NCBI RefSeq assembly: GCF_007743815.1
Contig: NZ_CP036265.1
Span: forward strand, 2,746,823-2,810,822
From: Alienimonas californiensis
GTDB lineage: Bacteria; Planctomycetota; Planctomycetia; Planctomycetales; Planctomycetaceae
Direction of reading: 5' to 3'
Length of the DNA: 64,000 nt
Shown: piece after piece, positions 4,067 through 26,468 of the stretch
Position numbering within the stretch: the first letter of the stretch is position 1
How the letters are laid out: each line of letters opens with the position of its first letter
Made by a program: the position numbers and the translations under genes
The notes under the pieces: generated by a model
Database searches by the model: none
Seen by the model: the letters and a program-made list of their open reading frames with translations, nothing else
Told to the model about the DNA's origin: nothing

Positions 4067-4209
4067 GGGGATCGGACGCCGGGCGGGGGAGGGCGAGCGG
4101 CCGGGGAGGACCGCGACCCCGAACGCCGCCCAACCTACCACACCCGCCGGCGGGCGTCAGCGGCGGGCCGGCGCGTTCAAGGGCGGGGCGAAGGGCGGGG
4201 CCGAGGCGG

Positions 4210-5760
4210 TCAGGGGGCGACGATCGTGAAGAACTCGTCCGCGACGGGCACGCCGTCGATCTTCAGCGTCATCCGGTACGGCCCCGGCATCAGGCACTCG
4301 TCCAGCGCCCAGATAAAGGTGTACCGGGCCTGTTCGCGGGTCAGCACGCCGCTTTGCCGGGTGATCGCCGGGCCGGCGCCGCCCTCGCCGTCGGCGTGAT
4401 GCAGCACGCATTCCAGCACCACGTCGTCGTGCGGCGGGGAGAGCCACGCCTGGGCCAAGATCGCCCCGGTGCAGTCGAACTCGTCGCTGCGGCCCACCAG
4501 GTGCCCGCCGATCAGTTGGCGGCCGAGGTCGAAATCCCACAGCAGGTCCGCGGGCCGGGGCGGGCGGTGCGGGGCGGTCATGGACCGCACCAGCGCCGGA
4601 TCGATCGCCTTGAGCGGCAGCGGCCCGTCGGCGCCGCGCTCGCCGTACGGGTCCAGTTGGTATTCAGCGCCCATCCCGATCACCGCGACCAGCGGGGCGG
4701 CGACGAGATAGCCCCACCGCAGCGCCGACGAGGGGACCGCCGGCAGGCCGAGTCGCGGCGGCCACAGCGACCGCAGCGTCCGGGCCAGCTCCGGCCGCCG
4801 GGTTTGGACGGTTTCGCAGAGGCTCGCCCACCGCTGACGGAACGCGGCCACGTCCCGCTCGTTGAGAAACGCCCCGTAGGCGGAGACGCTCACCAGCGGG
4901 AAAATAAACAGACCCAGGGAGAGCGTCGTCATTAAGTGGAACATGCAGCCTAGGGGCAGCCAGATTCGCCGGCCCCAGCCCCGCCAGGCCATCATCAGGA
5001 AGGTGATTTCCCACAGGCAGGTCGAGTAGGCGCCGACTTGCAACAACACCGGATTGACGGCCAGCAGCGGGCCGAGCGGGTGCACGCCGTTGACGTTGGT
5101 GACCATCCAGTAGGTCATCTGCTCCGCATTAAAGAATTCCGGCGTGTGAATTTTCGTGAACGCCGCCCCGAAATAGACGCCGCCGATCAGAAACTGCATC
5201 AGGCGGCGGGGCCAGGCGGGGGCCCGCTGCGGCGTCCAGGCTTCGCCGCGGGCCGCGGCGGCCCGGCGGGCGAGGCGGGCGTCGACGCTCCAGACGGCGC
5301 CGCAGCGGCTGAGGCTCAATAGAACGAACAGGTGCGTGGCGACGACGAGGTATTTGTTCAGCGTGCCGGTCGCATCCAGCCCGCCGAAATAAAAGCACCC
5401 CGCCGCGGCCAGGGCGCAGCTCGTCCGGGCCTTCCACCCGACCAGCGCCGCGACCAGGGCGAAGAAATACAGCGAGTACAGCGCGACCGCGGCCCCGCCC
5501 GGCAGTTCCGGCAGGACGTTGGGCAGGCCGTAGGTGTGCCACAGCGCCGCGGGGGCGCCGTCCGCGGAATAGAGTTCCCGGGCGTGCGGCCAGCGTTTGA
5601 CCGCGTCGTGCAGGATCGGCAGGGCGAGGGCGATTCGCACCGCCGCGGCGCCGTAGGGGACTTCCTCGGCGAAGAAGAACCGCCCGATCGAGCGCTTCAA
5701 TTCGGCGAGGGAGGGGCTGTCGGGGGCGGGGGCCGCGGGGGCCGATTCGGCGGGGGTCAT
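4210..5760 (-). CDS. HTTM (VKGC-like) membrane protein with C-terminal beta domain
   Basis: A 516-residue polytopic membrane protein resembling HTTM/vitamin K-dependent gamma-carboxylase-like proteins. Many hydrophobic helices span residues about 40-330. The signature segment FLIGGVYFGAAFTKIHTPEF retains a Lys at the place where the VKGC family has its conserved base region. The last 130 residues are soluble and beta-rich (from about DLGRQLIGGHLVGRSDEFDC to the end) and look like an exported beta-sandwich. ATG 5760 is preferred over an upstream in-frame start that would add 39 low-complexity residues. A 43-nt gap separates it from the upstream 254-aa gene, so the two are probably one operon. 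In bacteria the HTTM substrate is generally unknown. Confidence 0.75.
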   Translation of the reverse strand: MTPAESAPAAPAPDSPSLAELKRSIGRFFFAEEVPYGAAAVRIALALPILHDAVKRWPHARELYSADGAPAALWHTYGLPNVLPELPGGAAVALYSLYFFALVAALVGWKARTSCALAAAGCFYFGGLDATGTLNKYLVVATHLFVLLSLSRCGAVWSVDARLARRAAAARGEAWTPQRAPAWPRRLMQFLIGGVYFGAAFTKIHTPEFFNAEQMTYWMVTNVNGVHPLGPLLAVNPVLLQVGAYSTCLWEITFLMMAWRGWGRRIWLPLGCMFHLMTTLSLGLFIFPLVSVSAYGAFLNERDVAAFRQRWASLCETVQTRRPELARTLRSLWPPRLGLPAVPSSALRWGYLVAAPLVAVIGMGAEYQLDPYGERGADGPLPLKAIDPALVRSMTAPHRPPRPADLLWDFDLGRQLIGGHLVGRSDEFDCTGAILAQAWLSPPHDDVVLECVLHHADGEGGAGPAITRQSGVLTREQARYTFIWALDECLMPGPYRMTLKIDGVPVADEFFTIVAP

Positions 5761-5803
5761 GGCGGGTGCGGGGCGGGGCGTGCGGGGGGCGGGCCAGACG
5801 CGA

Positions 5804-6568
5804 TCAGTCGGCGAGTTCTGACGAATGCGAGGCGGGCACGACCCCCGCGGGGCCGCGGCGTTCGGCGACGGGCGCATTCCAACCGGCGCCGGCCAGCATC
5901 GGGGCGGAGCGGGGGGAGAACCGCCGGATCTTGGCCCGGTCCTGCACGTTCCGCTGGACCACCTCCGAGGCCCAAGACGGCCGCGAGCCGAGCAATTGCC
6001 CGTTCGGCGAGAGCACGTGCCGCACCGCGTAATAACTGGCCGGGTCCTTCGGCACGTTCCACCGCTCCGACCAGTGCGGCTCCGGCAAATTAAACTTCTT
6101 CGCCCAGACTTCCTCCACCAGGGCGATGCGGACGATCGGCTCGTGAGCGGTGTGCCGCAGGACGTTCAACGCCGTCCGGGCGCCGTGGGTCGCGTTCACG
6201 TCGTAATGAATGCGTTTCAGGTCGCCGTAGGGGCGGAACGGGCGGGCCTCCTCCCAAGGGCCGGTGCCGACCTCGTACCAGGTGCCGCTTTCGCCCTCGG
6301 CGATGACGTGATTGCGATAGCTGTGGGCGCTCCACCCGCAGAACATATCCCAGACGATATAATACATCAGGGGGTGGGACCCCTGATGAAACTCCAGGGC
6401 GTGGGACGCGACGCCGGCGGCCAGCACGCTGAGGTAGCCGCCGATAAACAGACTCGCCGCCCAACGACTCAGACGGGTTTTCAGCGTCGACGCCGCGGCG
6501 GAGGCCGCCGCGGCGGGAGAGGGAACCGGGTGATCCGTGTCGGGGGGAACCGCGGGGGGGGCGTGCAT
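5804..6568 (-). CDS. Hypothetical membrane-anchored partner of the HTTM protein
   Basis: A 254-residue protein with an Ala-rich N-terminus, one membrane helix (WAASLFIGGYLSVLAAGVASHAL) at about residues 37-59, and a soluble remainder with many aromatic and charged residues (HPLMYYIVWDMFCGWSAHSYRNHV; GTWYEVGTGPWEEARPF). No named domain was recognised. It lies 43 nt upstream of the HTTM gene on the same strand, which suggests co-expression and a joint envelope task. The C-terminal 30 residues are low complexity. The call rests on a coherent membrane-protein composition and on operon context. Confidence 0.6.
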   Translation of the reverse strand: MHAPPAVPPDTDHPVPSPAAAASAAASTLKTRLSRWAASLFIGGYLSVLAAGVASHALEFHQGSHPLMYYIVWDMFCGWSAHSYRNHVIAEGESGTWYEVGTGPWEEARPFRPYGDLKRIHYDVNATHGARTALNVLRHTAHEPIVRIALVEEVWAKKFNLPEPHWSERWNVPKDPASYYAVRHVLSPNGQLLGSRPSWASEVVQRNVQDRAKIRRFSPRSAPMLAGAGWNAPVAERRGPAGVVPASHSSELAD

Positions 6569-6721
6569 GGCGGCGTCCGTGCCGGGGGGAGGGCCGGCGG
6601 AGCGCCGACCCGGTGTCTTGCTTGCCGGAGACGTTCAATCAACCGGCCCCAAACGGTCAAGACGAACCTCGGCGCGCGGGGGAGACGAAACGCCGCGTGC
6701 GGAGTCGCACGCCGGCCGCGA

Positions 6722-8257
6722 TCACGCCGTTTCCGCCTCGCTGACCGCGTCGACCAGGCCGTCCCAGGTGGCCTCCGCGGCCACGGCGGCGACGTGCAGC
6801 CCGGCGTCGCGGCAGGCCGCGGCGACGTTCTCGCTGATCGCCGCGACTTTCAAACGCGCGCGGCCGGCCGAGCCTTCGGACAGCTCGGCGAACGACCGGC
6901 CGAGGTTCCCGCTGGCGATCAGAGCCCAGTCCAGCCGCCCCGCGTCCAGCAGGGCGGCGGCGTCCGCCGGCAGCGCCGTCGCCGGGGCCTGTCGATAGAC
7001 GTGTACCCGTCGCACCTCCGCCCCGGCGGCGCTCAGGCGGTCGGCCAGGGTCGGTTTCGCCTCCGGGCAGGTCGGCCACAGGACCCGCTTCCCCCGGACG
7101 TGCGGGGCGAGGGCGTCGGCGAGGGCCTCGGCGGAATACTCCTCCGGCGCGAGGTCCGCCACGAGGCGCAGGGGGGCCAGTGCCGCCGCCGTCGACGGCC
7201 CGACGCACGCCAGCGTCACCCCGAAGAGCGCCCGCAGGTCCCGGCGCTCCGGCCCCTCGAACAGCCGCCCAAAGCCATCCACGCCGTTGCTGGAGGTAAA
7301 CGCGATCGCGTCGCCCGGGCGGAGGGCGTCAACGGCCTCCGCCAATCCGTCCGGAGCGGCGATCCGCGGCGTGGCGAGCAGCGGGACGTCGACGGCTTCC
7401 GCTCCGGCCGCCCGCAATCGCTCCGCGGCGGCGGGCTGGGGGCCGGCGCCCACCAGCGCCGCCGAGAGGCCGTGCAGCGGCCGGCGTTCCCACCAACCGC
7501 GGTCCCCCGGTTCGGTCGCGGCGGTTCCCACCAGCAAAATCGCGGGGCCGGGCAGGGCGGCCGCGTCACAGTCGGCGGCGATCGTGGCGACAGTCCCGCA
7601 GACCGTCCGCTGCTCCGGCGTCGCCGCCTGCGAGACCACCGCCGCGGGGGTCTGCGGGCTCAGGCCGTGCTCTATCAGCGAGGCCGCGATCCGCCGCAAC
7701 CGGCGGCGGCCCATGTAGAAGACCCGCGTGCCGGGGAATGCGGCGAGGGCGCGCCAGTCGATCTGCTCCCGGGCCCGGCCGGCGTCGTGGCCGGTGACGA
7801 AGCAGACGGCGCCGGCGTGGTCGCGGTGCGTGAGCGGGATGCCGGACAGCCCGGACGCCGCGATCGCCGCCGTCACCCCCGGCACGACTTCCACCGGCAC
7901 GCCGGCGGCCAGCAGGGCGTCGGCCTCCTCGGCGCCGCGGCCGAAGATGGAGGGGTCTCCCCCCTTCAGCCGCACCACCCGCCGGCCGGCCTGCGCCTCG
8001 GCGATCATGCGGGCGATGAGGGCGTTCTGGTTCGCCTCGCGGGCGCCGGGGGCGTCCGTCGGGGCGTGGGTGCGGGTGACCATCTCCGCCGCGGGGTTCG
8101 CCAGCGCCAGCACGTCCGGGCCGACGAGGGCGTCCGCCAGCACGAGATCCGCCCTGGCCAGCAGCTCGGCGCCGCGGCGGGTCAGCAGGCCGGCGTCGCC
8201 CGGCCCGGCGCCGACGAGGGACACGGTCGGAACGGTTCGGTCGATCGGCGACGACAC
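6722..8257 (-). CDS. Uroporphyrinogen-III C-methyltransferase / uroporphyrinogen-III synthase fusion (CobA-HemD)
   Basis: A 511-residue bifunctional tetrapyrrole enzyme. Residues about 8-250 are a SUMT/CobA domain: VSLVGAGPGDAGLLTRRG, the SAM-binding RLKGGDPSIFGRGAEE, GVTAAIAASGLSGIPLTHRD and FYMGRRRLRRIAASLIEHG. Residues about 260-511 form a HemD-like uroporphyrinogen-III synthase domain with FTSSNGVDGF and the late WALIASGNLGRSF segment. The enzyme would cyclise hydroxymethylbilane to uroporphyrinogen III and methylate it to precorrin-2, on the way to siroheme or cobalamin. CobA-HemD fusions are known in several bacterial phyla. It is divergently oriented to the methyltransferase at 8379. 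Confidence 0.9.
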   Translation of the reverse strand: MSSPIDRTVPTVSLVGAGPGDAGLLTRRGAELLARADLVLADALVGPDVLALANPAAEMVTRTHAPTDAPGAREANQNALIARMIAEAQAGRRVVRLKGGDPSIFGRGAEEADALLAAGVPVEVVPGVTAAIAASGLSGIPLTHRDHAGAVCFVTGHDAGRAREQIDWRALAAFPGTRVFYMGRRRLRRIAASLIEHGLSPQTPAAVVSQAATPEQRTVCGTVATIAADCDAAALPGPAILLVGTAATEPGDRGWWERRPLHGLSAALVGAGPQPAAAERLRAAGAEAVDVPLLATPRIAAPDGLAEAVDALRPGDAIAFTSSNGVDGFGRLFEGPERRDLRALFGVTLACVGPSTAAALAPLRLVADLAPEEYSAEALADALAPHVRGKRVLWPTCPEAKPTLADRLSAAGAEVRRVHVYRQAPATALPADAAALLDAGRLDWALIASGNLGRSFAELSEGSAGRARLKVAAISENVAAACRDAGLHVAAVAAEATWDGLVDAVSEAETA

Positions 8258-16887: not shown

Positions 16888-17697
16888 TCAGTCGAGGGGC
16901 AGGTCGAGGTCCCGCAACGCAGCGAAGCCGGCGGGTTCGGTCAGATCGTACCGCAGCGGCGTCAGGGCCGCGTAGCCGGCGGCGACGGCGCCGGCGTCGG
17001 TGTCCGGGGCGGGATCGCCGGCGGTCGCGGGGTCCATGCCGGTCCAGTAGTAGGGGCGGCCCTCCGGGCTGTCGCGGCGTTCCAGCAGATCGCCGCGGCG
17101 GGTCGGGCTGCACCGCACCGCCTTGAGGCCCCGCGGGGCGACGGCGGGGAGGTTCAGGTTCCATAACGCCGCCCCCTCGGTCGGGCGCTCGCGGCCGGCT
17201 TCGTAGAGGCGGGCGGCGACGTCGACGGCGTACTCGGCCAGCGGGGCCCAGTCGTCGGGGTCGCGGCTCACGCAGCTGACGGCGACGCTCGTCACGCCGT
17301 GGAAGGCCGCTTCGATCGCCCCGGCCACGGTGCCGGAGTACAGCACCCCGTGCCCCACGTTCGCCCCGAGGTTGATCCCCGAGAGCGTCAGGTCCGGCCG
17401 CGTGCCCCGCAGTTGCCGGCCGAGTTCCAGCACGCCCAACTTGGCGCAGTCCGCCGGGCTGCCGTGCACGGCGTAGCCGTAGTGGTAGCGCTCGCCCGGC
17501 TGGCCGTCGCGGGATTCCCGGCGGCGGTGCACCTCCTCATACATGAGGGGGTGACGGTAAGTGATGGTCAGGCCCACGCCGCTCTGTTCGACGGCGGGGG
17601 CGACGACGGTGACCTCGCCCAGCTTGGCCGCGGCGGTCGCCAGGGCGGTCAGGCCGGGGGAGTGGATCCCGTCGTCGTTCACGACTAAGACGTGCAC
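16888..17697 (-). CDS. surE: 5'/3'-nucleotidase SurE
   Basis: A 269-residue metal-dependent nucleotidase/phosphatase. It starts at GTG 17697, which places the diagnostic VHVLVVNDDG at the N-terminus (metal ligands Asp8 and Asp9). The next conserved blocks are VVAPAVEQSGVGLTIT (Ser ligand) and LSGINLGANVGHGVLYSGTV (Asn ligand and loop). SurE dephosphorylates nucleoside monophosphates and often lies near stress or surface maintenance genes. The frame stays open far upstream to 21060, but that extension runs antisense to the YTV and epimerase genes and has no SurE similarity. The family's usual length (about 250-270) supports the GTG start. Confidence 0.93.
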   Translation of the reverse strand: MHVLVVNDDGIHSPGLTALATAAAKLGEVTVVAPAVEQSGVGLTITYRHPLMYEEVHRRRESRDGQPGERYHYGYAVHGSPADCAKLGVLELGRQLRGTRPDLTLSGINLGANVGHGVLYSGTVAGAIEAAFHGVTSVAVSCVSRDPDDWAPLAEYAVDVAARLYEAGRERPTEGAALWNLNLPAVAPRGLKAVRCSPTRRGDLLERRDSPEGRPYYWTGMDPATAGDPAPDTDAGAVAAGYAALTPLRYDLTEPAGFAALRDLDLPLD

Positions 17698-18261
17698 GGG
17701 CGGTTCGGTCGCTGCGGGCGGGACGGATCGGGCGGGCTCGCACGGGTCGGCCGGGAGCGCCGGGGGTGCGGGTCGGACGGAGTGTGGGCGGGCGGGGGGA
17801 GGCTGTCGAGGGGAGCGGGCTGGGGAAGGCCCCGCGTGAGGGGACGGCCGGCGCCGGTTCTGCGGACGCGCGCCAAAACGCCACGTTCGACGTCCCCTCA
17901 GCGGCGCAGCTTGCCCATCCGGCCGACCTTCCGCGTGCGAAGTTTTCGTCGGGATCCGCGTCCGCGTCGGGGTTCTTCTGAACCCTGACGGGGGACGCGT
18001 TTTCCCTTTGCGAACCCCCCCGCGCCCACAGGATACTGTGCCTACGACAGGACGCGGCCGACCCGCCCCGCTCAGGAGGAGCACGGCGCCCCACGACGGG
18101 ACGCCGGCTGGGATGGAACAGAGTCGGCCTCGCACAGACGCGGCGTCCGGGGAGGTGAGCGATCGCAACGTGCGTTTCGTCGGGGTCGGTCCCGCCGGGA
18201 AACGTCGGTTCGATCGCGGCAACTGCCCTCCTCCAGTGAACCCGCTCCCCCAGAGAGTCAT
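17698..18261. other. Divergent intergenic region between surE and the YTV gene
   Basis: 564 nt without a credible gene. Short open frames here have low-complexity Arg/Pro/Gly products. The right half carries a possible sigma-70-type promoter for the YTV gene (18008-18037), implying a 5' untranslated leader of about 210 nt. I see no riboswitch-like conserved fold. Confidence 0.5.
18008..18037 (+). promoter_or_regulatory. Possible sigma-70-type promoter of the YTV gene
   Basis: TTGCGA (18008-18013) and GATACT (18032-18037) are separated by 18 nt in otherwise very GC-rich DNA. The spacing and hexamers are close to consensus. Visual match only. Confidence 0.3.
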
Positions 18262-19884
18262 ATGAACGCTCGGACCCTCGCCGCCGCCGCCGCTGCGGCC
18301 GCCCTTTCCCTTGTGCCCGCCCCCGCGCATGCGGGGCTGTGCGGCCTGATGAGCTTCGGTTGCTGCCCGCAGGCGGCGCCGCCGCCGGCCTGCTACACGG
18401 CCAACCGCGTCGAACGCACCACCGCCTACCGGACCATCTACGACACCGTCGTGGAACGGGAGGTCTGCTACGTGCCGCAGCAGGTCACGGAGAACGTCTT
18501 CGAGACGGAAACCCGCACCGCCACCCGGGTCGTGTTCGAACCGCAGGTGCGTGAGGAGACCTACACCGTCCGCCGCCCGGTCTTCGAAACCTCCCAGCGG
18601 GAGCAGACCTACACCGTGATGCGGCCGGTGACGGAGACCGTTGTGCACGAGCAGCCCTACACCGTGATGCGGCCCGTCACGGAGACCCGCACCCGCGAAG
18701 TGCGGCGGGTCGTGATGAAGCCGGTGACGGAAACGGTGATTCAGGAGATCCCGCGGACCACCTACCGCAACGTCACCGAAACCCGCGTTTCGGAGCAGTG
18801 TTACACGGTGATGCGGCCGGTCACGACCTACCGGACGGTCACCCACACGGTGCCGCGGTTCCGCATGGCCCACTACCAGGTTCCGCTTCCCCCGAAGCTC
18901 GGCTTCGTGCCGCCGGATCCGTGCGATCCCTGCTGTTTTCCGCGGCTGGCGTTCCGTCCGCACTGCATGACCGTCTGCAAGCCGGTGTACGCCCCGCAGG
19001 TCTGCGAGCGTCAGGTGCCCTGCACCACGATGGTGCCGCAGGTCGTGCGTCGTCAGGTGCCCTACACGATCTGCCGCCGCGTCCCGGAGACGACGGTGCA
19101 GCGGATCCCCGTCACCACCTGCCGGATGGTGCGGGAAGAAGTCTGTGAGCAGGTCCCCTACACCTGCACGCGGATGGTGCGTGAGGAACGCGTCGCCCGC
19201 CGTCCGGTCACCACCACCCGGATGGTGACAGAGGAACGCACCCGTCAGGTGCCGGTGCAGGTCTGCCGGATGGTCGAGGAGCCGCGGACCCGCCAGGTGC
19301 AGTACTGCGTGCGGAAGGAAGTGCCCTACGAGTACCAGGTGCAGGTCTGCCGCCCGGTCTGCCGGACCGTGCAGCGGCCGGTCACCCGGCTGGTGCAGAA
19401 GTGCGTGGCCCGTCAGGTGCCCTACGAGGTCTGCCGGGTTGTGCCGACGCAGGTTTGCCCGAACGACTGCCCGACCGGGGACTGCGGCGGCTCGTCGATC
19501 ACCGGCCCGCTGTCGCCCCAGCCGGACTACGGCGTCCCGTCCAGCCAGAGCTACGGCGGCGGCTATCAGGATCCGCTGCCGCCGGCCGGCATGAACAGCC
19601 CGGACGCCTTCGACGCCGCCGACCCCAACGGCAGCTTCCAGGGCGACTTCGACGACTTCGGTACCTCCAACTACGGCTCCTACGGCGCGACCTACGGCAG
19701 CCCCTACGGGGACTCCTACGGCAGCACGAGCGGCTCCTTCAGCTCCGAGGGCCTCGATCTGGCCCCGGGCGAAGTCATCACCGGCTACGGCCCGCTGCGG
19801 CGGGTCGACCCGGCGGACCTGGACGCCGGCGCCGCGGACGACCTGAACGAAGATTTGGAGCCCGTCCCGTCCCAGGAAGACTGA
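18262..19884 (+). CDS. YTV-repeat, Cys-rich secreted protein (planctomycete surface protein)
   Basis: A 540-residue exported protein with a signal peptide (LAAAAAAAALSLVPAPAHA). Residues about 40-400 are imperfect repeats of about 20 residues containing YTV or a variant, e.g. EETYTVRRPVFET, EQTYTVMRPVTET, EQPYTVMRPVTETRT, EQCYTVMRPVTTYRTV. The second half replaces them with V/R-P-x-T-x-C-R-M-V units (TTCRMVREEVCEQVPYTCTR). Many evenly spaced Cys suggest disulfide cross-linking. The C-terminal 130 residues are Gly/Ser/Tyr-rich (NYGSYGATYGSPYGDSYGS) and end acidic. YTV proteins were described from planctomycete cell-wall fractions, so a structural envelope role is likely. A strong terminator follows. 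Confidence 0.9.
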   Translation: MNARTLAAAAAAAALSLVPAPAHAGLCGLMSFGCCPQAAPPPACYTANRVERTTAYRTIYDTVVEREVCYVPQQVTENVFETETRTATRVVFEPQVREETYTVRRPVFETSQREQTYTVMRPVTETVVHEQPYTVMRPVTETRTREVRRVVMKPVTETVIQEIPRTTYRNVTETRVSEQCYTVMRPVTTYRTVTHTVPRFRMAHYQVPLPPKLGFVPPDPCDPCCFPRLAFRPHCMTVCKPVYAPQVCERQVPCTTMVPQVVRRQVPYTICRRVPETTVQRIPVTTCRMVREEVCEQVPYTCTRMVREERVARRPVTTTRMVTEERTRQVPVQVCRMVEEPRTRQVQYCVRKEVPYEYQVQVCRPVCRTVQRPVTRLVQKCVARQVPYEVCRVVPTQVCPNDCPTGDCGGSSITGPLSPQPDYGVPSSQSYGGGYQDPLPPAGMNSPDAFDAADPNGSFQGDFDDFGTSNYGSYGATYGSPYGDSYGSTSGSFSSEGLDLAPGEVITGYGPLRRVDPADLDAGAADDLNEDLEPVPSQED

Positions 19885-19918
19885 GGCGGGAGAACTGAGA
19901 CCGCGTTGAGCCAACGCC

Positions 19919-19938
19919 GGGCGCTCTCCGGAGCGCCC
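19919..19938 (+). terminator. Short hairpin downstream of the YTV gene
   Basis: Perfect 8-bp stem GGGCGCTC / GAGCGCCC around a TCCG tetraloop, 35 nt after the YTV stop. There is no T-tract. It may stabilise the 3' end together with the stronger hairpin that follows. Confidence 0.4.
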
Positions 19939-19996
19939 GCCGACATCGCCGAGCGATCGGCAACACGTCTGCGCCGTGAGGTGCGGGTTCCGGCAG

Positions 19997-20032
19997 CGCC
20001 GGGGGATTGCGATCCCCCGGCGTTGTTCGTTT
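19997..20032 (+). terminator. Intrinsic terminator of the YTV gene
   Basis: An 11-bp stem (CGCCGGGGGAT / ATCCCCCGGCG) with loop TGCG at 19997-20022 is followed by TTGTTCGTTT. This is the most canonical Rho-independent terminator in the window and separates the YTV gene from the epimerase. Confidence 0.7.
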
Positions 20033-20109
20033 GATGGGCGGACGGTTCCCCTCCGCGGTCCGCCGCCGGGCGGTCCGCCCCCGTTCGTTCCCCCCGTCGA
20101 AGTCTCGCC

Positions 20110-21087
20110 GTGTCCCGCTGTCTCGTCACCGGCGGCGCGGGGTTCATCGGTTCGCACCTGACGGAGCGGTTGCTCAGCGACGGGCACGAGGTCGTCGTGC
20201 TGGACGACCTGAGCACCGGCCGCAAAGGCAATCTCAGCGCGGTCAAAGACCACCCGGCGCTGCGGCTGATCCGGGCCTCGATCACCGATCCGCAGGCCGT
20301 CACGGAGGCCACGGCCGGCACGGAGGTGATCTATCACCTCGCCGCCGCAGTGGGGGTGAAGCTGGTCGCCGACGACCCGGCCCGCACGATCGAGACGAAC
20401 ATCCAGCCCACCGAAACCCTGCTGCGGGCCGCCGCCGCCGGCGGGCAGCGGTTCTTCCTCGCCAGCACCTCCGAGGTCTACGGCAAGAACCCCAAGGAGC
20501 GCTGGACGGAGGAGGACGACCTCGTGTTCGGCCCCACCGCCCGCCCCCGCTGGGCCTACGGGTGCAGCAAGGCGATCGACGAGTTCCTCGCGCTGGCCTA
20601 CTGCCAGAAGTACGGCTTCCCGGTGATCATCGGCCGGTTCTTCAACGTCGTCGGGCCGCGGCAGGTGGGGGCCTACGGCATGGTCATCCCCCGCTTCGTG
20701 CGGGCCGCCCTCGACGGGGAGCCGTTGCAGGTCTACGACGACGGCTCCCAGGAACGCTGCTTCGCCCACGTCGGCGAGGTGGTCGACCACGTCGTCCGCC
20801 TGATCAATCATCCCGGCGCCTCCGGCCGCGTCTGGAACCTCGGGGCGGACGAACCCGTCACGATGCGGGAGCTGGCCGAGACGGTGGTCGAACTGACGGG
20901 CAGTTCCTCGGCGATCGAGTTCGTCCCCTACGAAAAGACCTACGGCTCGAACTTCGAGGATATCCAACGCCGCGTGCCGGACACCTCGGCGCTGGAGGGG
21001 CTGCTGGGCACGGCGCCGTCGATGCCGCTGCGGGAGATTCTCGCCGACGTGATCGCGCACGCCCGGGCGAACCGGACGGGCCGGTGA
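20110..21087 (+). CDS. NAD-dependent sugar-nucleotide epimerase/dehydratase (extended SDR)
   Basis: A 325-residue extended short-chain dehydrogenase starting at GTG 20110. It shows the Rossmann motif [11 protein letters not shown], an acidic cofactor residue (VVLDDLSTG), the Ser/Thr of [12 protein letters not shown] and the catalytic YGCSK (Tyr-x-x-x-Lys). [18 protein letters not shown] and [14 protein letters not shown] resemble UDP-glucuronate decarboxylase / UDP-glucose 4-epimerase-like enzymes. It would interconvert NDP-sugars for polysaccharide synthesis. Its stop overlaps the GTG of the next membrane-protein gene by 4 nt. Confidence 0.85.
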
Positions 21088-22898: not shown

Positions 22899-23912
22899 TC
22901 ACTCGTACTTCGCGATCTCCGGCTCCGGCACCTCGGCGACGAGGCGTTCGACCACGTTGACGCTGTCCACCCCCTCGGCCTGGGCCTGAAAGTTCGTGCT
23001 GAGGCGGTGCCGCAGCACCGGCACGGCGACGCGGCGAATGTCGTCCAGCGTGACGCTCGGCCGGCCGTCCATCGCCGCGATCGCCTTCCCGCCCTGAATC
23101 AGGTACTGCCCGGCCCGCGGACCGGCGCCCCAGTCGACGAGGTCCTTCACGAACCCCGGGCTGCGGTCGTCCCCCGGCCGCGTGGCCCGCACCAGCCGGG
23201 CGACGTACTGGATCGTGCGGGGCGTCGCCTCGATCTGGGCGATCTGCTTTTGCAGGTAGACGATCGACTTGGCGCTGAGCACCTTCCGCACCTCCTCTCG
23301 CACGCCCCCGGTCGTTGCGGCGAGGATGCGCTCCTCCTCGTCCAGGCTCGGGTAGTCCACCTTCACGTTGAACATAAACCGGTCGAGCTGAGCCTCGGGC
23401 AGCGGGTAGGTGCCCTCCTGTTCGATCGGGTTCTGGGTCGCGATCACGAAGAACGGGTCCGGCAGGTCGTAGGTCTTCTGGCCGGCGGAGACCTCCTTTT
23501 CCTGCATCGCCTGGAGCAGCGCCGCCTGGGTTTTGGGCGGCGTCCGGTTGATCTCGTCCGCCAGCAGCACGTTCGTGAACACCGGGCCGTGCACGAAGCG
23601 GAACTCCCGGCGGCCGTGCTCGTCCTCGTCCAGCACGTTGGTGCCGGTGATGTCCGAGGGCATCAGGTCCGGGGTGAACTGGATCCGCTTGAAGTTGACG
23701 TCCAGCACGCGGGCCAGCGTGGAGACCAGCAGGGTTTTCGCCAGCCCCGGCACGCCCACCAGCAGGCAGTGCCCGCCGGTGAACACTGCGGCGAGCAGTT
23801 GTTCGATCACCTCGTCCTGCCCGATGACCACCTTGTGCAGCTCCTCCCGCACCAGGCCGTAGTGCGATTTGAACTTGGTGAGGAACTCGTCGAAGTCGCG
23901 CTGGTCGGACAC
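22899..23912 (-). CDS. MoxR-family AAA+ ATPase
   Basis: A 337-residue MoxR ATPase; GTG 23912 opens with a helical DFDEFLTKFKSHYGLVREEL. Walker A is GVPGLAKT, Walker B VLLADEINR, sensor 1 FFVIATQNPIEQEGTYPLPEAQLDRF, and the C-terminal lid domain ends REDI-like (SVTLDDIRRVAVPVLRHRL). MoxR proteins act as chaperones for metalloenzymes or surface complexes, typically with DUF58 and VWA partners. None of those is next to it here; the divergent neighbour is the toroid/DUF4159 gene, which in planctomycetes often belongs to the same larger MoxR locus. Confidence 0.9.
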   Translation of the reverse strand: MSDQRDFDEFLTKFKSHYGLVREELHKVVIGQDEVIEQLLAAVFTGGHCLLVGVPGLAKTLLVSTLARVLDVNFKRIQFTPDLMPSDITGTNVLDEDEHGRREFRFVHGPVFTNVLLADEINRTPPKTQAALLQAMQEKEVSAGQKTYDLPDPFFVIATQNPIEQEGTYPLPEAQLDRFMFNVKVDYPSLDEEERILAATTGGVREEVRKVLSAKSIVYLQKQIAQIEATPRTIQYVARLVRATRPGDDRSPGFVKDLVDWGAGPRAGQYLIQGGKAIAAMDGRPSVTLDDIRRVAVPVLRHRLSTNFQAQAEGVDSVNVVERLVAEVPEPEIAKYE

Positions 23913-24044
23913 GGGGCGGACGTCGCTGGGGGCGTTCGGGACGGGGCGATTCGTCGATCGGCCGGGGTTCTTGCGAAGAAACCGGGCTGGGCGGCGAAGC
24001 GGGGGCGCCGGATGATACGCCCCCCGCCCCAAGGACGCCCCCCG

Positions 24045-26468
24045 ATGCGATTGTCGCCCCCCCCGCGAACTTGCCGTCCGCTTGCCGCGGCACTGGTTCT
24101 CTGCACGCTGCTGGCGCCGTCGCTCACCCCGTCCGCCGTTGCCCAGGACCTGTCCAGCGAGGAGGTGAAACGCTCGATTGACCGCGGCGTCGCCGCCCTC
24201 GCCAAGCTGCAACGGGCGAACGGGTCTTGGGATTCGCCGGGCGTGAGCCACATCCCCGGCTCGACGGCCCTGTGCGTGCTGGCCCTGTTGAACAGCGGGG
24301 AGCCCGTCGATTCCCCCCCGGTGGCCGCCGGGCTGAAGTACCTCCGCGATCTGCCGACCGGGGAGATCGTCGGCGGCGGCACCTACGACACCTCGCTGGC
24401 CCTGATGGCCTTCGCCGCCGCCAAGGAGCCCCGCCGCGACAGCGCCCGCATGCAATCCCTCACCCGGGCACTGGAGGACGGCCGGGTGAAGGAGGGCCGG
24501 AACCGCGGCGGCTGGGGCTACGGCCTGCCGAGCGTCGGCGGCAGTGCGGACCGCTCCAACAGTCAATACGCCGTCCTGGGCCTCCGGGACGCCGCCTACG
24601 CCGGCGTCCCGGTCCAGCGGCAGACCTGGGAAGACATCGCCAACTACTGGGTCGGCCCGAACGCCCAAAACCGCGACGGCGGCTACACCTACACCGGCGC
24701 CGGCGGCGGGGCGCGGGGCTCCATGACCGTCGCCGGCATCGCCACCCTCAGCATTCTCAAATCGATGCTGCGGCAAGACGAATTGAACCCCGACGGTACG
24801 CCGAATTGTTGCGGCGAAAACGACGCGGAGCGCGAACTGGAGCGGTCCGTCGAGGCCGCCTCCGACTGGCTGACCCGCTACTTCGCCGTCTCCCGCAACC
24901 CCCAATATAACTCGCACACGCTCTATTACCTCTACGGCCTGGAGCGGGCCGGCCGACTGGCCGGCCGGCGCTTCTTCGGGGAGCACGACTGGTACCGCGA
25001 GGGCGCCGCGTGGCTGCTCCGCAATCAAAACCCCCGCACCGGCGGCTGGGTCGGCAACGGCTTCGGCGAAACGAACGAGATCGTCGGGACCGCCTTTTCC
25101 CTGCTGTTTTTAGCGAAGGGATTGAGCCCCGTCCTGATGAATAAACTGAAATACGACGACGGACAGGCCGGGGACGACGCCTGGCAGACGCACCCCGCCG
25201 ACGCCCGCAACCTCACCTTTCACGTCAGCGGCCTGCCCAAGTGGCCGAAGCTGGTCACATGGCAGGTGCTCGACCTGCAAAAGGCCGTCGCCGCCGGGGA
25301 CCTCGCCGGCGCCCTGCAGGGGCCGGTCACGCTCATCACCGGTCGGGACGCTCCGCAGTTCAGCCCGGTGGAAGTGAAATTCCTGCGGGACTACGTCGAC
25401 GCCGGCGGGTTCCTGCTGGGGGTGGCGACCTGCGACGGCGGGGATTTCCGCGCCGGTTTTGAACGGCTCGTCGCCCAGATGTATCCGGAGGACGCGCCGA
25501 AGTTGGACCGCCTTACGGAGGAGCACCCCGTGTTCCGCAGCGAATATCTGCTGAACGCGGACGTCGTGGAGCTGTACGGGGCGGACCTCGGCTGCCGCAC
25601 GCCGATAATGTTCAGCCCGGTCGACCTGAGTTGTTACTGGGATCTGTGGACGCCCTACGATCTGCCGGACCGCGATCCGCAGTTGCTCACGCAGATCACC
25701 CAGAAGGTCAATACGGGCGTGAATATCCTCGCCTACGCCACCGGCCGGGAGCCGCCTGATAAATTGGAGGCGAAGGACCCGGTCGCCGAAGTCGGCGCCC
25801 GGGACGCCGTGGAACGCGGCCTGTTGCAGGTCGCCAAGTTGCGGCACGAGGGGGAATGGGACGCCGCCCCTAGGGCGCTACGGAACCTGCTCCTGGCCCT
25901 CAACCGCACCGCCGGCGTCGCGGCCAGCACCAAGGTGAAGTCGCTGACGCCGGGCGATATGAACGTGTTCCGCTATCCCGTGCTGTATATGCACGGCCGC
26001 GGGGCGTTCTCCCTGGGCCAGGCGGAGCGGGAGCGGTTGCGCACCTATCTGGAGAACGGCGGCGTGTTGTTTGCGGACGCCTGCTGCGGCTCCGAGCCGT
26101 TCGACCGGGCGATGCGGGAGTTGATGGGCGAACTCTTCCCGGAGTCCCCGCTGACCCGCATCCCGCCGGATCACGAATTGTTCTCGGAGCAAATCGGGTT
26201 CGATCTCTCCCGCGTCCGCCGCCGCGTGCCCGCGGCCGTCGGGGCGGGGGCGTTGGATGCGGACGTTGTCGTCGGGGAGCCGTTTCTCGAGGGCGTGACC
26301 GTCAACGGGCAGCTTGCAGTGATCTATAGTAAGTACGACATCAGTTGCGCCCTGGAACGGCAAACGACCGCCGCCTGTGCGGGGTATCTGCCCGAGGACG
26401 CTTTGAAGATCGGGATTAATGCGCTGCGGTACGCGCTGCTCCGCGACCCCGTCGCGCCGGAGCAGTAG
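24045..26468 (+). CDS. Secreted alpha-toroid (prenyltransferase/squalene-oxidase-like) protein with DUF4159 domain
   Basis: A protein of about 807 residues. ATG 24045 places the signal peptide (LAAALVLCTLLAPSLTPSAVAQ) correctly; ATG 24012 would add 11 residues. Residues about 35-390 are alpha/alpha-toroid repeats with QW-type patterns (GVAALAKLQRANGSWD, GRNRGGWGYGLP, AAWLLRNQNPRTGGWVG). Residues about 410-800 hold DUF4159-type Rossmann-like segments: FLRDYVDAGGFLLGVATCDGG and RLRTYLENGGVLFADACCG. DUF4159 relatives occur in planctomycete MoxR loci and may bind ligands at the envelope. No cyclase DxDD motif was seen, so enzymatic terpene cyclisation is unlikely. Confidence 0.8.
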   Translation: MRLSPPPRTCRPLAAALVLCTLLAPSLTPSAVAQDLSSEEVKRSIDRGVAALAKLQRANGSWDSPGVSHIPGSTALCVLALLNSGEPVDSPPVAAGLKYLRDLPTGEIVGGGTYDTSLALMAFAAAKEPRRDSARMQSLTRALEDGRVKEGRNRGGWGYGLPSVGGSADRSNSQYAVLGLRDAAYAGVPVQRQTWEDIANYWVGPNAQNRDGGYTYTGAGGGARGSMTVAGIATLSILKSMLRQDELNPDGTPNCCGENDAERELERSVEAASDWLTRYFAVSRNPQYNSHTLYYLYGLERAGRLAGRRFFGEHDWYREGAAWLLRNQNPRTGGWVGNGFGETNEIVGTAFSLLFLAKGLSPVLMNKLKYDDGQAGDDAWQTHPADARNLTFHVSGLPKWPKLVTWQVLDLQKAVAAGDLAGALQGPVTLITGRDAPQFSPVEVKFLRDYVDAGGFLLGVATCDGGDFRAGFERLVAQMYPEDAPKLDRLTEEHPVFRSEYLLNADVVELYGADLGCRTPIMFSPVDLSCYWDLWTPYDLPDRDPQLLTQITQKVNTGVNILAYATGREPPDKLEAKDPVAEVGARDAVERGLLQVAKLRHEGEWDAAPRALRNLLLALNRTAGVAASTKVKSLTPGDMNVFRYPVLYMHGRGAFSLGQAERERLRTYLENGGVLFADACCGSEPFDRAMRELMGELFPESPLTRIPPDHELFSEQIGFDLSRVRRRVPAAVGAGALDADVVVGEPFLEGVTVNGQLAVIYSKYDISCALERQTTAACAGYLPEDALKIGINALRYALLRDPVAPEQ

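Follow-up and report, generated by a model that had tools for sequence, protein, structure and literature searches.

Proteins of the YTV family are the closest described relatives of the protein analysed here, and Mahajan 2020 is said to be the main paper on their evolution. A comparable idea is found in the Chlamydiae, a lineage of the related superphylum, which have Cys-rich envelope proteins and disulfide cross-linked envelopes. In both cases a Cys-rich layer would strengthen the envelope, but the protein families are different as far as we are aware, and the likeness is in idea only. Several wall studies place YTV proteins in planctomycete cell walls. They were named as major constituents of Gemmata obscuriglobus walls boiled in 10% SDS (PMC5287468), two of them scored highest in wall preparations of Tuwongella immobilis, and they were also reported from the walls of Rhodopirellula baltica and the Gemmataceae (PMC8567305). 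Furthermore, the essential genes of P. limnophila include one for a YTV protein, for which a role in wall rigidity was suggested (PMC10632474). The planctomycete wall has been described, with citation of Liesack 1986, as a protein sacculus with disulfide bonds (PMC2754498). Peptidoglycan has also been reported for Planctomycetia (PMC5287468), amid a debate on the subject (PMC10632474), and hence a protein layer need not be the sole wall. The share of protein layers in planctomycete walls beside peptidoglycan is unsettled; among class-specific building blocks, the YTV proteins have the best support. In a repeat-modelling paper, YTV is among the families modelled without a known structure (PMC8078820).

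We analysed a window of 64,000 nucleotides from Alienimonas californiensis (contig NZ_CP036265.1, positions 2,746,823 to 2,810,822, forward strand). A complete CDS for a YTV-family secreted structural protein of 540 aa was located at 18262..19884 (+), and this ORF is the best reading of the stretch. The coordinates and all the motifs quoted in the first-pass annotation agreed exactly with it. The protein matched the Pfam family YTV (PF07639) in 6 stretches with an E of 1.4e-27, the score being 95.9 bits against a cut-off of 21, and its orthologs supported the same assignment. The NCBIfam search returned no family, the PDB sequence search returned 2 matches with a best E of 0.76, and the viral_contigs search returned no relative. 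A protein with 78-82% identity to it occurs in the sister species A. chondri. A 1390-aa ORF on the opposite strand, whose C-terminal end holds SurE, was rejected as most likely a high-G+C artefact.

Subsequently, the distribution of the family was examined. YTV was found in 196 of 198 Planctomycetia genomes, including all 177 that were at least 90% complete and at most 5% contaminated, and in none of the 14 control genomes. Across the phylum, 42 of 392 genomes matched; 40 of these belong to the class and the other 2 are weak matches outside it, so the restriction to Planctomycetia is near-complete. The present protein used as the query found matches in 118 of the 120 genomes of its own family, although for 11 of the 118 the best match did not reach E 1e-40 and could represent a paralog or a fragment. 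The wall proteins of R. baltica, G. obscuriglobus and T. immobilis share with this protein the same repeat by profile, a secretion-type N terminus and Cys-richness; this likeness is at the level of the family. The first-pass annotation had proposed a structural component of the wall or surface. This reading is well supported, because YTV is near-universal in the class and its relatives are wall constituents or essential, with the wall proteomics of relatives bearing on it by analogy. It is not new, since the protein is a member of a known planctomycete wall family. Of remaining interest are the register of the Cys residues, the combination of a thinned register and a genus-specific tail in Alienimonas, and a missing oxidase.

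The domain layout begins with a Sec signal peptide predicted by inspection from a hydrophobic Ala-rich stretch (residues 1-24, 18262..18333 (+), with AHA/G cleavage). The same layout was seen by inspection in A. chondri and other orthologs, pointing to export of the kind seen for YTV wall proteins. The signal peptide is followed by an N-terminal Cys cap (residues 25-68, 18334..18465 (+)), identified by ortholog conservation and dN/dS. Residues 41-60 of this cap form the best-conserved run of 20 residues in a set of 30 orthologs. Repeat block 1 (residues 69-196, 18466..18849 (+)) is built from 16-residue YTVMRPVTETxxREQx units, as judged from autocorrelation and register tables. It is separated by a Pro/Cys-rich linker with gaps and low ortholog conservation (residues 197-249, 18850..19008 (+)) from repeat block 2 (residues 250-397, 19009..19452 (+)), whose 16-residue units read PYTTCRMVxEExxxxV and have the family Cys most often at unit position 4. 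This two-block layout is common to the protein and the aligned family orthologs. A C-terminal Cys cap with conserved Cys columns (VCPNDCPTGDCGG, residues 398-410, 19453..19491 (+)) closes the core; its Cys 399, 403 and 408 occur in 46, 35 and 38 of 46 aligned rows, respectively. The remainder consists of a Cys-free Gly-Ser-Tyr-Asp tail seen only in Alienimonas (residues 411-494, 19492..19743 (+)) and an acidic C-terminal end defined by the two-species alignment (residues 495-540, 19744..19881 (+)).

The repeat was then characterised by autocorrelation over residues 45-400. Self-similarity was highest at lag 16 and lag 32 (z about 13.5), with identities of 0.33 and 0.34, respectively, against a shuffle maximum of 0.194 at any lag; none of 1000 shuffles reached the observed peak over lags 4 to 40. 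With the Tyr/Val of the YTV position as the anchor, which was our own choice, block 1 read Y-T-V-M-R-P-V-T-E-T and block 2 read V/Y-Q-V-C-R-M-V-P-E-T. Because these anchored profiles match, the blocks look like one 16-residue repeat and not two kinds, the difference lying mainly in Cys placement. Thus, of the two distinct repeat blocks described earlier, the blocks, their motifs and their coordinates are real, but both contain the same repeat.

When residues 85-200 (block 1 alone) were modelled with AlphaFold, the best of five models had a pLDDT of 84 and showed two beta strands of 52 residues each, whereas the other four ranged from 68 to 39, and the pTM was 0.33. The hairpin turn lay one repeat off relative to a larger model, and hence the register of the beta strands is not trusted. 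The prediction for the core (residues 25-412, two sequences) had a pLDDT of 35 and was discarded as unusable. In a Foldseek comparison against the PDB, 14 chains had an E of at most 0.001, but TM-scores were at most 0.32 among the 50 matches listed, and we did not read them as homology. The rows that we recognised among these matches are long hairpin stems, such as those of phage tail proteins and pores.

The Cys pattern was compared across 46 orthologs, comprising the present protein, its sister in A. chondri (L020) and 44 others; the latter were the 28 best-scoring loci (L021-L048) and 16 chosen for their searched Dsb status. Near-identical rows were kept, and L019 was omitted as coming from the same genome as L020. 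In residues 101-196 (block 1), 140 of the 203 Cys of the 44 other orthologs were at repeat positions 15 or 16, and in residues 252-347 (block 2), 202 of 411 were at position 4. Between columns with at least 50% Cys, gaps of 16-17 residues accounted for 4 of 4 in block 1 and 5 of 10 in block 2. A placement test on such columns gave p 0.001 for block 1 and p 0.002 for block 2, on an alignment that had a wrong start for L057 and thereby one lowered Cys count; the same alignment underlies the tail figures below. For the full stretch of residues 45-390, which includes the linker and in which the two blocks differ in phase, p was 0.15. With this 16-residue register of Cys, the way in which such a layer could be cross-linked can be pictured concretely and put to the test.

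The protein itself carries this pattern in reduced form. With 26 Cys in its 540 aa it is Cys-rich in the manner of YTV wall proteins, though below the range of the 44 other orthologs: residues 25-410 contained 26 Cys here and 24 in the sister, against 31-49 (mean 37.9) in the others, and residues 45-200 contained 2 and 1, respectively, against 6-14. In residues 101-196 there was a single Cys, C180, the family Cys at position 15/16 being largely absent, and the phase concentration of block-2 Cys was somewhat less regular (0.58 vs 0.67 for the family). These counts indicate that most Cys present in the relatives in this region are missing from Alienimonas, and the simplest reading of the alignment would be a loss of Cys in this genus. 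The Cys lattice noted at first reading is therefore real but thinned.

The first-pass annotation had also called the layer disulfide-linked. We searched the A. californiensis genome with the Pfam models of DsbB, VKOR and Thioredoxin_4 and found no match, although diverged enzymes could escape such a search; in the 14 control genomes the same families were matched in 6, 3 and 9, respectively. Among 98 sampled Planctomycetia genomes, VKOR was matched in 23 and DsbB in 9. A hand count over the two listings gave at least one of them in 29 genomes and neither in 69. Here, Thioredoxin_4 was searched in the species' own genome, and the survey of the class covered DsbB and VKOR. The number of Cys in the ortholog was similar in genomes with DsbB or VKOR (n = 10, mean 36.8) and in those without (n = 13, the present protein included, mean 35.1; p 0.68); this comparison covered the 23 of the 25 own-family genomes in the sample for which an ortholog was at hand. 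In the available portions of the literature on Dsb in Planctomycetes and on wall cystine, nothing settled the disulfide route.

These results bear on the view that the Cys act as thiols, for a metal or redox buffer or for partner attachment, instead of forming disulfide cross-links. The empty search of this genome, and the absence of both DsbB and VKOR from 69 of 98 class genomes when YTV is present in 196 of 198, would agree with that view. However, the Cys recur in phase within each block, which looks structural, the literature on the group cites a disulfide-containing protein sacculus (PMC2754498), and an aerobic periplasm together with other oxidases could supply disulfides. We therefore regard thiol function as quite improbable. 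Disulfide linkage is a plausible and fair expectation at the level of the family, and it is weakest for the present protein, which has the fewest Cys of the 46 apart from its sister and whose genome gave no match to the three models. Because DsbB and VKOR are scarce in the class, the "protein sacculus with disulfide bonds" becomes a biochemical question. As a tentative and rather doubtful idea, Cys-ladder walls in most Planctomycetia without DsbB or VKOR may point to an undescribed oxidation route or to conserved Cys that are not disulfides, and Alienimonas, with the thinnest ladder among the orthologs compared, may partly swap Cys contacts for its Tyr-rich acidic tail.

Three YTV loci were detected in the A. 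californiensis genome. The paralog L013 at 4128-5585 (-) (Pfam YTV E 2.1e-53) resembles the present protein on inspection in its two-block 16-residue layout, but its 486 aa include 59 Cys and it lacks a tail of this kind. Among the YTV proteins of the genome it may be the one that chiefly carries disulfides. With one Cys-poor and one Cys-rich YTV protein, Alienimonas offers a natural contrast for testing the disulfide question. The repeats of L013 are close to perfect 16-residue units. The paralog L014 at 4737-6842 (+) encodes 702 aa with Gly-Tyr-Ala-Pro stretches; it has one copy of the motif CFLGKLFGH/CFLGRLFGH in the middle and a second at the end, which may reflect an internal duplication.

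The protein differs from other YTV proteins not only in having fewer Cys, above all in block 1, but also in its long Gly-Ser-Tyr-Asp tail, which has been seen in Alienimonas only. The whole tail is 130 aa long, free of Cys, and has a net charge of -20. It contains 9 Tyr, and that of A. chondri is 144 aa long with 8 Tyr, whereas the tails of the 44 other orthologs are 0-76 aa with 0-2 Tyr; among the latter, the 40-aa tail of L028 is rich in Gly/Ser but has no Tyr. When residues 410-540 were used as the query against 30 relatives, clear matches were obtained only in two Alienimonas genomes, with one weak match elsewhere (E 0.003) and the rest at E > 0.1. The tail has 8 YG dipeptides against a shuffle mean of 1.39, and A. 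chondri has 5. At the DNA level, TRF reported 2.0 copies of a 24-nt unit at 19679-19725. The GSY repeat was not kept in A. chondri, where the conserved parts are the short island SEG[L/I]DLAPGEVITGYGPLR of the acidic end and DAFDAADPN.

Subsequently, dN/dS against A. chondri was calculated with gapped codons excluded. The values were 0.06 for residues 25-100, 0.11 for block 1 and 0.12 for block 2, and rose to 0.63 for the linker (residues 201-245), 0.77 for the GSY tail and 0.96 for residues 495-540; the tail alignment also carries indels. Strong purifying selection thus acts on the core and is absent from the tail. Since the GSY repeat is not kept in the sister species, the tail looks like a drifting disordered spacer whose composition is kept.

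The tail is the part of the protein that could favour an outer-surface or holdfast-type role, in which the YTV core would anchor in the envelope and the Tyr/Gly/Ser tail would be the adhesive working part. The tail is indeed long and Cys-free, both Alienimonas species share its Gly/Ser/Tyr/Asp composition and a few short islands, and L014 has its own Gly-Tyr-Ala-Pro stretches. However, no tail comparable in length or Tyr content occurs in the 44 other orthologs, the tail evolves at a dN/dS of 0.77-0.96 with indels against 0.06-0.12 in the core, and its repeat does not persist between sister species. We consider this role unlikely. The idea of a sticky silk is unsupported, because the tail is confined to Alienimonas, acidic and drifting. 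The "flexible sticky end" thus keeps its flexibility, which is plausible for a Gly/Ser/Asp-rich, near-neutrally evolving segment, and loses its stickiness. The term "silk-like" was not upheld either. Silk fibroins and other Gly-Ser-Tyr structural proteins resemble residues 421-495 in local composition only; the Alienimonas tail is short and acidic, and it contains no long conserved Gly/Ser/Tyr repeat array of the silk type. Accordingly, neither silk homology nor an adhesive tail was retained as a main reading.

Taken together, these findings suggest that the YTV protein is likely an exported, repeat-built and Cys-held part of a cell wall layer, with the tail as a spacer. In the mechanism that we propose, the protein would be exported by its signal peptide, and the 16-residue repeats would probably form long regular beta strands or ribbons. 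The Cys caps at both ends and the Cys row of block 2 would link adjacent strands or molecules to one another, and disulfides formed after export would give an SDS-resistant protein layer. The Gly-Ser-Tyr-Asp tail would, in the simplest case, be a flexible, weakly constrained acidic spacer leaving the layer. Wall location, SDS resistance and importance for growth would be expected by analogy with the relatives described in print. A role in a local structure, such as crateriform pits or the bases of fimbriae, would be an alternative to a continuous wall. Both crateriform structures and polar fimbriae have been described in A. californiensis (PMC10509075, Table 1), and repeat proteins could build either kind of structure. 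However, the relatives came from whole-wall preparations and not from appendages, as far as the accessible text of those studies describes (PMC8567305, PMC5287468), and a local structure therefore appears very unlikely.

High expression, as the first-pass annotation expected, found indirect support in codon usage and in a conserved 3' hairpin. The codon adaptation of the gene, with 18 genes of the ribosomal protein region as the reference, was 0.757 and ranked 2 of 33 ORFs of the window picked by a G+C-frame rule. The YTV paralogs had 0.80 and 0.82, and the 18 ribosomal genes themselves had 0.604-0.821, a range that includes the YTV gene. The protein is probably abundant, as far as codon usage can indicate. 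The hairpin at 19991..20029 (+) (core 19997-20022; -35.3 kcal/mol, z -3.1) is likely a terminator or a 3' end stabiliser, and A. chondri has the same hairpin except for one change in the loop. The sequence after it, TTGTTCGTTT, is an imperfect T run, and the hairpin was not listed in the terminator scan. Hence, of the "strong terminator", the strong conserved hairpin stood and the terminator function is less certain. No second locus of the hairpin was found within the window at 3 or fewer mismatches.

Upstream of the gene, a candidate promoter, TTGCGA - 18 nt - GATACT, lies at 18008..18037 (+) in a block conserved with A. chondri. It would give a 5' leader of about 215 nt (18044..18261 (+)), which agrees with the long leader proposed earlier; nothing was found in the promoter scan, and both features are therefore inferences. 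Folding of the leader (18046-18261) was ordinary (z -0.64). Rfam models gave three matches over 17400-20200, all far below the gathering score, and comparison of the leader with the regions of the YTV paralogs gave short chance-like matches with a best E of 0.01.

The SurE gene at 16888-17697 (-) is divergent from the YTV gene. The idea of an operon was rejected, as SurE is divergent and the downstream epimerase is not consistently next to the gene: in 28 loci from outside Alienimonas, which mostly extended about 1.5 kb to each side, SurE was matched in 4 and the epimerase in 2. Two segments of the SurE/YTV divergent intergenic region, 17905-17946 (42 nt) and 18123-18154 (32 nt), are nearly identical between the Alienimonas species, and a 24-nt core of the former was present, among 56 loci, only here in both Alienimonas species. 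A few kb from the YTV gene, a gene for a MoxR-type AAA ATPase at 22899-23930 (-) is divergent to a DUF4159 gene at 24300-26468 (+), where the 5' ends are those of the searched stretches and give approximate starts.
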